The position numbers were made by a program, and so were the translations under genes. A stretch of DNA of 64,000 nt from Turneriella parva DSM 21527 (GTDB lineage: Bacteria > Spirochaetota > Leptospiria > Turneriellales > Turneriellaceae): the NCBI RefSeq assembly GCF_000266885.1, contig NC_018020.1, positions 1,240,001 to 1,304,000 of the forward strand, given 5' to 3'. Under the pieces are notes generated by a model, which made no database searches, was not told where the DNA came from, and saw nothing but the letters and a program-made list of their open reading frames with translations. Shown here piece after piece: positions 14,856 through 46,620 of the stretch (the first letter of the stretch is position 1; every line of letters starts with the position of its first letter).

Positions 14856-14903
14856 GCAATAGCGATGCAGAGACTGCGTACGCAGTCTCTGCATCGCTAT
14901 TGC
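14856..14903. repeat. 48-bp perfect palindrome in the SDR leader
   Basis: Two 24-base arms without a loop: it starts GCAATAGCGATGCAGAG, has GCGTACGC at the centre and ends CTCTGCATCGCTATTGC. It lies 17 bases upstream of the SDR-like start codon, just before the TTCTCCTT (AAGGAGAA on minus) ribosome site. It could act as the tetR terminator, as a leader hairpin or as a mobile palindrome. Confidence 0.9.
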
Positions 14904-29639: not shown

Positions 29640-30147
29640 CGCTTATCTTTAACGGCAGCCTTTTGGGCAACGCCTCTCTTGTCAAAATAGGATCAGTCGT
29701 CTTGTCGCCCGGCCAGTCTTCGAGGCGCGGTCGGGCGGGCGCATTGCCCACGGGTGCGACAAGCACCCGCTCTTTCACGATTCTTTTGCCATCTAGTCCA
29801 ACAGCCATCACTCCATTGTTGCGCAGAAAAAGGTTCATAGCTTCAAACTTTTTCGCCGCCTCGGCGAAGGTTTTGAACGCGAAGTGGATCGGGTAGTTTT
29901 GGTCTTTGTAGTTGTAAGGATATTCTTGCATCATGAGCAGCGTGACCCGGTATTCATCACTTTGGAATTCCATGACGAGGTGTGAAACTTTGCGTTCCCA
30001 CACGATTTTTTCAAACAGGGTGTCATAGATAGGGTATTTATAACCTGCGGCGAATTCTTCTTTGTAGTACTGGTATTCGTCTTTGAAGGTTGGTTTGTCG
30101 GCAAAAACTGCCACAGAAATCAGCACGACAATCAAAGGTGTCTTCAC
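29635..30147 (-). CDS. Secreted protein of unknown function, last gene of an operon
   Basis: 170 residues with a short signal peptide (MKTPLIVVLISVAVFA). The mature part begins DKPTFKDEYQYYKEEFAAGY and has no recognised domain; a proline-rich tail ends KRLPLKISD. The start as read is GTG 30147; a TTG (30135) with AAAGGTG upstream is possible. It follows the CcmB-like gene by 15 bases. The start codon sits in the stem of an 18-bp hairpin (30122-30163), which may limit translation. Confidence 0.7.
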   Translation of the reverse strand: MKTPLIVVLISVAVFADKPTFKDEYQYYKEEFAAGYKYPIYDTLFEKIVWERKVSHLVMEFQSDEYRVTLLMMQEYPYNYKDQNYPIHFAFKTFAEAAKKFEAMNLFLRNNGVMAVGLDGKRIVKERVLVAPVGNAPARPRLEDWPGDKTTDPILTREALPKRLPLKISD

Positions 30148-30163
30148 CTTTGATTGTCGTGCT
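30122..30163. repeat. Perfect hairpin across the start of the secreted-protein gene
   Basis: AGCACGACAATCAAAGGTG (30122-30140) pairs with its complement at 30145-30163 around the loop TCTT. The stem covers the GTG start of the gene at 30147 and the last bases of ccmB. In RNA this would bury the initiation region. Confidence 0.85.
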
Positions 30164-36597: not shown

Positions 36598-36681
36598 GGA
36601 GAGGGGGGGATTCGAACCCCCGGTAGGTTTCCCTACACATGCTTTCCAAGCATGCACATTAGACCACTCTGACACCTCTCC
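36598..36681 (-). tRNA. tRNA-Ser (anticodon GGA)
   Basis: On the minus strand GGAGAGGTGTCAGAGTGG starts the cloverleaf. The anticodon arm CATGCTT-GGA-AAGCATG is a clean stem; a long variable arm (TGTAGGG/CCTACC) is as in serine tRNAs; T-arm GGGGGTTCGAATCCCCC; acceptor 5' GGAGAGG pairs with 3' CCTCTCC. CCA is not encoded. Confidence 0.97.
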
Positions 36682-36721
36682 AAGAATTAGAAATCCGGCT
36701 GCGCCGGATTTCTAATTCTTG
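36681..36721. terminator. 19-bp perfect inverted repeat between the PiT-like gene and tRNA-Ser
   Basis: CAAGAATTAGAAATCCGGC pairs with its complement around TGC. The arm touches the 5' end of the tRNA gene. For the upstream minus-strand gene it is a plausible terminator, though the arm is longer than usual. Confidence 0.65.
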
Positions 36722-36752
36722 GGATTGGGACGCCTCGTCGAGCGCGATATGG

Positions 36753-40764: not shown

Positions 40765-40818
40765 AACAAAGGGTTTTCTTGCATTGGCCTGGCGGCCAAT
40801 GCAAGAAAACCCTTTGTT
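40765..40818. repeat. 54-bp inverted repeat (25-bp perfect arms) between HU and rpmB
   Basis: AACAAAGGGTTTTCTTGCAT begins the left arm, GGCC-TGGC-GGCC is the centre, and the right arm is an exact complement. It sits between divergent start codons of hup and rpmB. It could be a bidirectional leader hairpin or an immobile palindrome insertion. Confidence 0.85.
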
Positions 40819-43056: not shown

Positions 43057-43098
43057 TTTGTTTGTAGGGGTAGGTTTAAACCTACCCCTACAAACAAA
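43057..43098. repeat. 42-bp perfect palindrome in the barrel-gene leader
   Basis: TTTGTTTGTAGGGGTAGG at 43057 is mirrored exactly, with centre TTTAAA. It lies 35 bases before the AGGAGA ribosome site of the gene at 43142. Confidence 0.92.
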
Positions 43099-44258: not shown

Positions 44259-44292
44259 CTGCTTGCCACCGAATTAATTCGGTGGCAAGCAG
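44259..44292. repeat. REP-like palindrome 1 of the GAATTAATTC family
   Basis: A 34-bp perfect palindrome centred on GAATTAATTC with arms CTGCTTGCCACC/GGTGGCAAGCAG. It lies 190 bases upstream of the Y1 transposase. Related palindromes occur at 44381, 44877 and 45548. Confidence 0.9.
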
Positions 44293-44380
44293 GTCAGAAA
44301 GAACCTCATGAATACTCGGTTTTGGGGGGATGGCTTCAAAGGTTCTTTGCGGAGAACATGCAACAGCGGCCAGTTTTCCC

Positions 44381-44408
44381 CTTGCCCCCGAATTAATTCG
44401 GGGGCAAG
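44381..44408. repeat. REP-like palindrome 2 of the GAATTAATTC family
   Basis: 28-bp perfect palindrome, arms CTTGCCCCC/GGGGGCAAG. The A-to-C change in the left arm relative to copy 1 is compensated by T-to-G in the right arm. Confidence 0.9.
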
Positions 44409-44480
44409 CAGAAAAGTGCAGGGAATGAATTTATTGCCAAGGCAGCTGAATTGTAATCGTGACTATAGAACGAGTATTGC

Positions 44481-44897
44481 ATGGCTCACGTCACCTATCA
44501 GATATATTTTCATGTCGTCTTTGCCACTAAACGCCGTCTACCCCTGTTGACACAGCAGATGATTGCGGTAATCAATGGCATAGTTCAAGATCTTTCAGTC
44601 GAAATAGGTTTCAGGGCTATCGCTGCGGGTGGCCATGAAGACCATCTGCACATCTTGCTTTCGCTGCCCCCGCATATGACCCTCGCCACTGTCATTAAAC
44701 GCATTAAGGGCCGAACATCGCGTGAGAATGGAAACCTATACTGGCAAACCGGATACTATGTGGAGACAGTATCCGTTTCCGGAGTGGGTAACCTCGTTGA
44801 CTACATTCGGAACCAATGGCAAATGCATAGTCTGCGCAGGCTCGAAGATGCCGGTTTCTTTGAACCTGCTTTCTTACCCCCATTGCCACCGAATTAA
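44481..44897 (+). CDS. IS200/RAYT-like Y1 (HUH) transposase
   Basis: 138 residues of the Transposase_17/Y1 family. YFHVVFATKRRLPLL is the N-terminal strand; EDHLHILLSLPP carries the HUH (His-x-His) metal motif; GYYVETVSVS contains the candidate catalytic tyrosine; VDYIRNQWQMHSLRR is the C-terminal helix. Such enzymes cut single-stranded hairpin ends; those encoded alone with palindromes in the genome are called RAYTs. The stop codon (TAA) lies inside the palindrome at 44877-44914, so the C-terminal residues PLPPN are encoded by it. Confidence 0.9.
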   Translation: MAHVTYQIYFHVVFATKRRLPLLTQQMIAVINGIVQDLSVEIGFRAIAAGGHEDHLHILLSLPPHMTLATVIKRIKGRTSRENGNLYWQTGYYVETVSVSGVGNLVDYIRNQWQMHSLRRLEDAGFFEPAFLPPLPPN

Positions 44898-44914
44898 TTC
44901 GGTGGCAATGGGGG
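44877..44914. repeat. REP-like palindrome 3, right end of the transposase unit
   Basis: 38-bp perfect palindrome, arms CCCCCATTGCCACC/GGTGGCAATGGGGG around GAATTAATTC. It contains the transposase stop codon and lies 45 bases before the AAA+ ATPase start. Confidence 0.9.
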
Positions 44915-44958: not shown

Positions 44959-46620
44959 ATGTTTCTCGAAAGCGTACGAGGGCTGATCGAGTCGGGCGAT
45001 ACCTCGGCGGTCATGCTCACAGGCAATGTGCGCGATGTGTATGCCTTTGACGGCAAGTTCGGCACGCTGACAGAACTGCTGCGTAGCCAGGTTTTTTCTG
45101 GTTACGATACCGTGGCAGAGTACGATCCGCAGGGCGGCATTCAATTTGCCGACCCGAAGCAGCGCGAGAACTATCTGCGTGCGCTCAGCGGCTACGATGC
45201 GTACCACAAGACGAGCTATGCGCAGAACCCGCCGAAAGACCCGGTGCAGGCGTTTTCGATTCTCGACAACTTTGCGCGGCTGCACCTGATCGACAAGAAG
45301 TCGTTCTGCGTCATTATCCATTATCTCGACCAGATAATTCCGACTGGGCTGAATAACAATAACGAACTGCGATATTTGGTTATAGCACTCGATAAGTGGG
45401 CGCAGAATTTGGATTTCAGACGAAACAAGATCCGTTTCGTGCTGATCGCGCCCGAGGTCGCGCGGCTCGAGAGTTTTATCGCGAAGAATGCGTTTATTGA
45501 GCATGTGACTATTGCGAGGCCTGGTCTTGAAGAGCGGCACAATACTATCTCCATTAGCCACCGAATTAATTCGGTGGCTAATGGAGAAGAGCAAAGTCAC
45601 AAGCTAGCAGAACTGACAGCAGGCCTCACAAACCGCCAGGTGCTCGAGATTCTGAGCAAGAAGCAAACCGACGAAATTCAACTGCGCGCCATCAAGAAAG
45701 AGCTCATCAGCGCTGAGTGCAGAGGTTTACTTGAAATCGTCGAGCCGAAACATTCGCTTTCGGTTGTGGCAGGGCATGAAAAGGTAAAAGAAATTCTTTC
45801 GCTGACAGCTGAAGCGATCAAGCTCGGCAAGACACAGTACCTGCCGATGGGTTTCTTGATTTGTGGCCCCGTAGGTACGGGCAAAACATTTATCACCGAA
45901 TGCTTTGCGCACGACGCGGCGCTGCCGGTGGTGAAGTTTCTGAATTTTCGCTCACAGTGGCAGGGCGAAACCGAAGCGAACCTCGAAAAGATTTTTAACA
46001 TTTTGAAATCCATCTACCCGGTTGCAGTCATGATCGACGAGGCCGATGCGTTTCTCGGCAATCGCGACGCACAGGGCGACAGCGGTGTGTCGATGCGAGT
46101 GTTTGCTTCGCTGGCGGCGCTGATGAGCGACACGAGTTATCGTGGCAAAATCATCTGGTTCTTGATGACCTCGCGGCCCGACCTCTTGCCGGTTGATATG
46201 AAACGCCAGGGCAGGGCTGAAGAGCACCTTGCATTATTTCACCCGCAGAGTGGGGCTGAAGTAGACGCGCTCTACACGAGTGTCTGCAAGCGGCTCAAGA
46301 TCGCGTCGCCGCTGAAAGAACTGCATCAGCTTCTCGACAAAAAGCGTTCGTATTCGGGCGCAGACATCGAAGCGATGATGACGCGCGCTGCGCTTTCAGC
46401 ATCGGTCAGGCATAAAACTGAACTCAACGCAGAGATCGTCAAAGAGACAATTACCAATTTTCGCAGCCCTGAATATCCGCTCGCGATTGAGCTGCAGACC
46501 CTCGTCGCGGTGCGCGAGTGCACACACCAGGACATGGTGCCCGAAAAATACCGCGGGCTTGCCGCTGCAGACATCGAAGCGCGTATCAATGAACTTCTGG
46601 GTATGCTGAGGCAGCGATGA
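44959..46620 (+). CDS. AAA+ ATPase with an intragenic palindromic insertion
   Basis: 553 residues from MFLESVRGLIESGDTSAVML. An N-terminal domain of about 300 residues (DVYAFDGKFGTLTELL..., second region FARLHLIDKKSFCVIIHYLDQI) is followed by one AAA module: Walker A GPVGTGKTFITE, Walker B VAVMIDEADAF, sensor region WFLMTSRPDLLPVDMKRQGRAEEHL and a C-terminal helical lid (SYSGADIEAMMTRAALSA). The fold resembles CDC48/proteasomal ATPases; the role is unknown. Residues about 199-208 (SHRINSVANG) come from palindrome 4. No clear ribosome site is visible. Confidence 0.85.
   Translation: MFLESVRGLIESGDTSAVMLTGNVRDVYAFDGKFGTLTELLRSQVFSGYDTVAEYDPQGGIQFADPKQRENYLRALSGYDAYHKTSYAQNPPKDPVQAFSILDNFARLHLIDKKSFCVIIHYLDQIIPTGLNNNNELRYLVIALDKWAQNLDFRRNKIRFVLIAPEVARLESFIAKNAFIEHVTIARPGLEERHNTISISHRINSVANGEEQSHKLAELTAGLTNRQVLEILSKKQTDEIQLRAIKKELISAECRGLLEIVEPKHSLSVVAGHEKVKEILSLTAEAIKLGKTQYLPMGFLICGPVGTGKTFITECFAHDAALPVVKFLNFRSQWQGETEANLEKIFNILKSIYPVAVMIDEADAFLGNRDAQGDSGVSMRVFASLAALMSDTSYRGKIIWFLMTSRPDLLPVDMKRQGRAEEHLALFHPQSGAEVDALYTSVCKRLKIASPLKELHQLLDKKRSYSGADIEAMMTRAALSASVRHKTELNAEIVKETITNFRSPEYPLAIELQTLVAVRECTHQDMVPEKYRGLAAADIEARINELLGMLRQR
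45548..45587. repeat. REP-like palindrome 4 inside the AAA+ ATPase coding sequence
   Basis: 40-bp perfect palindrome, arms TCTCCATTAGCCACC/GGTGGCTAATGGAGA around GAATTAATTC. Read in the ATPase frame it encodes about 13 residues including HRINSVANGE, without a stop. Confidence 0.93.

Follow-up and report, generated by a model that had tools for sequence, protein, structure and literature searches.

The window analysed here is a stretch of 64,000 nucleotides from the genome of Turneriella parva DSM 21527 (hereafter G000; 4.4 Mb in two contigs, the main contig of 4,384,015 bp). It carries a short transposase gene of the Y1 type accompanied by four palindromes of one family (family 1), and one palindrome of another (family 3):

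43057..43098, no strand: family-3 palindrome (GTAGGGGTAGGTTT^AAACCTACCCCTAC, arms TTTGTTT/AAACAAA), genome position 1283077
44259..44292, no strand: family-1 palindrome copy 1 (CTGCTTGCCACCGAATT^AATTCGGTGGCAAGCAG), 17-bp arms, upstream of the Y1 gene
44381..44408, no strand: family-1 palindrome copy 2, 14-bp arms, immediate 5´ flank of the Y1 gene
44481..44897, + strand: Y1 (HuH) transposase, 138 aa plus stop codon, motifs DHLH, WQ and YIRNQ..H, subclass 1.2-like
44877..44914, no strand: family-1 palindrome copy 3, 19-bp arms, 3´ flank, overlapping the 3´ end of the Y1 gene
44959..46620, + strand: AAA+ ATPase gene carrying copy 4, predicted start codon
45548..45587, no strand: family-1 palindrome copy 4, 20-bp arms, inside the AAA+ ATPase gene

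All four family-1 palindromes share the core CCGAATTAATTCGG, have perfect arms with zero loop and begin where an earlier note on this DNA had placed them. The Y1 transposase which that note saw among them is a real gene (44481-44897), its HuH/single-tyrosine core being confirmed by Pfam PF01797 (Y1_Tnp, 75 bits). Copy 2 lies 73 bp ahead of the start codon of this gene, the left arm of copy 3 encodes its final codons (PLPPN) together with the stop codon, and copy 4 is placed in frame (SISHRINSVANG) in a variable linker of the AAA+ ATPase. Since this linker is hypervariable, it cannot be aligned, and the AAA+ gene was dropped as an empty-site test. Inverted repeats with perfect arms of at least 11 bp occur 11 times in the window and not once in its Markov shuffles. 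The window also harbours four perfect hairpins with arms of 19-25 bp and loops of 0-4 nt (14856-14903, 30122-30163, 36680-36722 and 40765-40818), which show no kinship to the palindrome families. Similar hairpins are found in the sister species used for site comparison (genome G003, about 90% identical to G000), several of them with a TGC/GCA triloop.

Next, we examined the class of the enzyme. The IS200 transposase model of NCBIfam (NF033573) scores 73 bits, above the cut-off of 55, and the nearest solved structures are transposases, ISHp608 among them. With the NCBIfam model REP_Tyr_transpos, the score is 28 bits, far below the cut-off of 80, and the RAYT motif Y---NP is absent from the protein, which has YIRNQ..H instead; judged by motif, it is not a RAYT. 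Short proteins with the motifs DH[LVI]H, WQ and YIxNQxxHH constitute TnpA_Y1 subclass 1.2 (Quentin et al., PMC6006769), and on these motifs the window enzyme appears to belong there. Its own tyrosine motif, YIRNQWQMH, retains one of the two final histidines, and its relatives have the full YIxNQxxHH. Members of subclass 1.2, described from Cyanobacteria and Bacteroidetes, have been described as generally without REPs or typical hairpins (PMC6006769). The earlier note had read the locus as a RAYT-REP system; the relation between enzyme and repeat stands, the identification of the enzyme as a RAYT does not. G000 contains three Y1 genes, the other two being 31-41% identical to that of the window. 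A plain IS200 element was considered and rejected, as near-identical copies of a whole element are absent.

Our census of palindromes in the genome consists of pattern and covariance-model matches. The family-1 core is present in 15 exact copies. With up to two mismatches allowed it occurs at 39 places, as compared with five for the reversed control pattern, and the covariance model added further diverged copies. Among 19 aligned family-1 copies, 14 of 20 base pairs vary on both sides, not a single one-sided (G-U type) change is found in the 14 innermost pairs, and the covariation score of 0.453 compares with 0.141 in shuffled alignments and with 0.075-0.127 when the partners are slid. The matching of every change from arm to arm, reported earlier for the window copies, is thus total across this alignment. 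Shuffles, the reversed-pattern control and the covariation score together rule out a chance origin of the palindromes.

Two places in the G000 genome deserve mention in their own right. At G000:C1:1154049 (L011), a single palindrome supplies the last codons and the stop (LLPPN*) to both of two converging genes. Another locus (L019) has a trio of like palindromes (GCTATGGGCTT^AAGCCCATAGC) at G000:C1:3409673, 3409800 and 3411003, all inside 1.4 kb, and no Y1 gene was detected there; this trio is possibly a remnant of a lost enzyme locus.

Each of the three Y1 genes of G000 is flanked on both sides by palindromes with a private core (GAATTAATTC, GGGTTTAAACCC and GTAGGTTTAAACCTAC). The genome search for the core and for its proximity to Y1 genes, which the earlier note had called for, therefore does not leave four copies and unlinked enzymes, and the enzyme-repeat relation proposed there holds. 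While the enzymes are single-copy, their repeats are many and dispersed; the family-3 palindrome of the window, for example, has its cognate Y1 gene elsewhere, at genome position 4295927. The association extends beyond this genome. Palindromes on both sides were found at 11 of 19 spirochaete Y1 loci, with the same core on either side in ten of these 11, and at 2 of 218 control placements. Among Y1 relatives from other phyla, one of 22 was flanked on both sides, with shorter hairpins. The published absence of REPs and terminal hairpins in subclass 1.2 accordingly fails for these spirochaetes. Moreover, similarity of the stems tracks similarity of the enzymes (Mantel r=0.55, p=0.0003, n=12 enzyme-palindrome pairs).

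In a further genome of the same genus (G006), short half-arm repeats (TCGTTGCC / GGCAACGA) surround a Y1 gene (L068, 1391-1480 and 1921-2000); they are perhaps partial insertions or guide-like sequences. Duplicated Y1 genes in genome G017 were rejected as an instance of clean transposition, the copies being about 80% identical and the duplication extending well beyond the palindromes, so that it defines no element ends.

The palindromes have a common architecture. Among the perfect palindromes of the collected loci, 63 of 71 have a T[A/T]G foot that ends exactly 10 nt short of the axis, as do 21 of the 27 stem types; in the same 71 it was never found at offsets 8, 9 or 11. A check for GTAG or GTGG tetranucleotides on the 5´ side of the hairpin revealed an NT[A/T]G foot at both ends, exact GTAG being limited to some families, such as family 3, where all 13 copies have it. 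The element is therefore a symmetrical 28-bp double-foot REP-like unit, composed of NT[A/T]G, a 10-nt half-stem, the axis and the mirror image of both. The earlier opinion that these elements stand apart from the usual GTAG-type REPs is not supported, in view of the two feet, each at 10 nt from the axis, and of the exact GTAG of family 3.

Outside this unit, copies differ. In family 3, the 14-nt half-core is invariant, and the outer arms are copy-specific and matched over 1-11 bp. Most comparable palindrome sites are not common to G000 and its sister species, which points to recent movement of the palindromes. Copies that are common to both (813433, 1383992 and 2124817) carry unmatched substitutions, and so does a duplicated palindrome copy in G017. 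Since shared copies decay without matching, the matching of the arms is not maintained and dates from the birth of each copy.

These observations bear on the possibility that the palindromes act as RNA or DNA hairpins, two-way terminators for instance, in whose arms changes have been compensated over time. Such selection would agree with the position of many copies directly behind or between genes and with the tendency of some hairpin to persist at the sites in both species. It does not agree with the lack of one-sided intermediates in the 14 innermost pairs, as RNA should tolerate G-U, nor with the copies placed in frame within genes, and none of the four copies in the window adjoins a T-run or is scored as a terminator. 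As copies common to two species decay uncompensated, the matching of the arms is not due to selection for it. We consider this explanation improbable and, because of the unmatched shared copies and the missing inner intermediates, reject compensatory evolution under structural selection as the main cause.

Comparison of the non-shared sites revealed what stands there in the other species. Another perfect hairpin (arms of at least 11 bp) was present at 6 of 16 such sites, versus about 3% of random stretches, drawn from intergenic and other DNA alike. At two sites, 3950111 and 1553248, the hairpin found in the sister species agrees in its outer stem and differs in its apex. At site 1283077 (window position 43057), the family-3 palindrome of G000 is replaced in the sister by a family-1-like palindrome. 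The family-3 copy at G000:C1:408827 (L089) sits on top of the variable stem in a cobalamin riboswitch, and the two strands of this stem are the outer arms of the copy. The cobalamin riboswitch of the sister has another perfect hairpin at this position. The riboswitch match in G000 scores 31.3, just under the Rfam gathering score of 31.5 (E 3.7e-6). Finally, G000 and G003 each have a family-1 palindrome with a 26-bp REP-like repeat (CCCTTCGACTAAGCTCAGGGCAAGTA / variant) situated at most 1 nt from its axis (G000:C1:1144176-1144243, L137; G003:C372:6085-6152, L141).

On these grounds we find it somewhat probable that the palindromes are REP-like non-autonomous elements, each type with its own single-copy Y1 enzyme, which settle in the tips of hairpins. 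Because the element is symmetrical, either strand can form a hairpin, and this hairpin would be what the enzyme recognizes. The foot might act like the GTAG guide of REPs, by analogy with studies of REP cleavage (PMC8266576). We infer that, after recognition and cleavage, the enzyme would move or copy the element as single-stranded DNA and transfer this strand into a hairpin already present, at its exposed tip; terminators, riboswitch stems and other palindromes could all serve as such hosts. From the host hairpin, the stem would remain as the copy-specific matched outer arms, sometimes shortened or perfected in repair, and after insertion the arms would drift uncompensated. Insertion into hairpin tips has a precedent, since REPs located within other palindromes have already been reported (PMC3733652). 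The earlier note had left two explanations for arm compensation: either the hairpin is made by copying one strand, or its structure is under selection. This choice omits an origin from the stem of a host hairpin, which is a better fit to the sister comparison, and the uncompensated decay of shared copies speaks against its second half.

Several facts stand against tip insertion. The outer arms of family 3 (1-11 bp) are shorter than typical local hairpins (18-25 bp), and part of the host hairpin must for this reason be lost. The one clean empty site (L143 in G003, compared with L185 in G000) holds no more than a weak quasi-palindrome, whereas the occupied copy has perfect 11-bp arms. Besides, two of the supporting sites resemble terminators or belong to a riboswitch, and one would expect a hairpin there in any case.

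The main rival draws on the same facts. In fold-back copying, the palindrome would join the 3´ end of the target and fold on itself. Its own 3´ end would then prime synthesis along the neighbouring target, which would leave one outer arm as a new inverted copy of its partner; a hairpin target is not needed. Arms of arbitrary sequence and of 1-11 bp in family 3 agree with such copying, and so do the perfect arms of the occupied copy where the empty site (L143) has a weak quasi-palindrome. At 3950111, the match between the two arms extends further than in the sister, where the left arm is conserved and the full right arm is not; one arm thus looks copied. However, both outer arms are already found in the riboswitch stem and in two hairpins of the sister, and at 6 of 16 sister sites a hairpin is found at the same place. 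As the full explanation, fold-back copying seems to us rather unlikely; it may contribute alongside tip insertion.

It could also be supposed that general template switching in replication makes or renews perfect hairpins, the Y1 genes being incidental. Both the window and the sister genome do contain perfect hairpins without kinship to the palindromes, with small loops and arms of 18-25 bp. Furthermore, there is one palindrome whose site and arms (TCATTAGGCAGGG) agree between the two species (L181 in G003; L183, G000:C1:1319221-1319352) and whose apex differs, being AATTAATT in one of them and GTTTAACC in the other. Nevertheless, template switching leaves unexplained the private cores flanking each Y1 gene, the correlation of enzyme and core, and the 10-nt spacing of the foot, and we regard it as very improbable.

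Returning to insertion into hairpin tips, a more general proposition is that Y1 enzymes of subclass 1.2 target structure and not sequence, placing double-foot palindromes into hairpin tips where each copy adopts the stem of its host. We hold this to be plausible, if just short of probable. If insertion is indeed directed by structure, it would be one route by which bacterial terminators and riboswitch stems are rewritten, and REP-like elements could spread in this way with little damage to genes. One enzyme class would then link scattered palindromes, turnover of hairpins at gene ends and variation of riboswitch stems. For a Y1 subclass so far described without REPs, the results also provide a repeat partner, together with a search rule for more such elements (T[A/T]G, 10 nt, axis) and many independent enzyme-palindrome pairs in which the reading of hairpins by HuH enzymes can be studied.

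A literature search found no published account of palindromes of this kind in Turneriella. Rickettsia palindromic elements are longer than the palindromes described here, and no cognate enzyme is known for them. The two resemble each other as short palindromes placed in frame within protein genes (PMC3733652). TIRYT genes and TIRtrons are similar in that inverted repeats, some self-complementary and some belonging to repeat families, lie on both sides of Y1 genes; they differ in being mostly of subclass 2.1 with an extra C-terminal domain, and no fixed distance from foot to axis has been described for them (PMC3733652). With IS200/IS605 elements (IS608, ISDra2) our system shares the closest solved structures, the fit to the NCBIfam IS200 model and hairpins near both gene ends, whereas repeated whole-element copies are absent here and the hairpins are symmetrical, dispersed alone and provided with copy-specific matched arms. 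TnpA_Y1 subclass 1.2 agrees in its motifs (DH[LVI]H, WQ, YIxNQxxHH), short protein and low copy number, but is described without REPs (PMC6006769), while its spirochaete members have palindromes on both sides. The REPtron unites RAYT/TnpA_REP with GTAG REPs, among which are the double-foot REPs of subclass 2.4 (PMC6006769, PMC2817692). It resembles the present system in the single-copy Y1 enzyme flanked by its own short dispersed palindromes, in the GTAG-like foot, and in repeats which sometimes lie in frame in genes and give them stop codons. It differs in that the enzyme here lacks Y---NP and the palindromes, of perfect symmetry and without a loop, have a 10-nt half-stem and copy-specific matched outer arms. 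Layout and foot are thus already known as being of the REPtron kind; new, as far as the literature searched shows, are the enzyme class, the symmetry without a loop, the fixed 10-nt rule and arms that are specific to the site.
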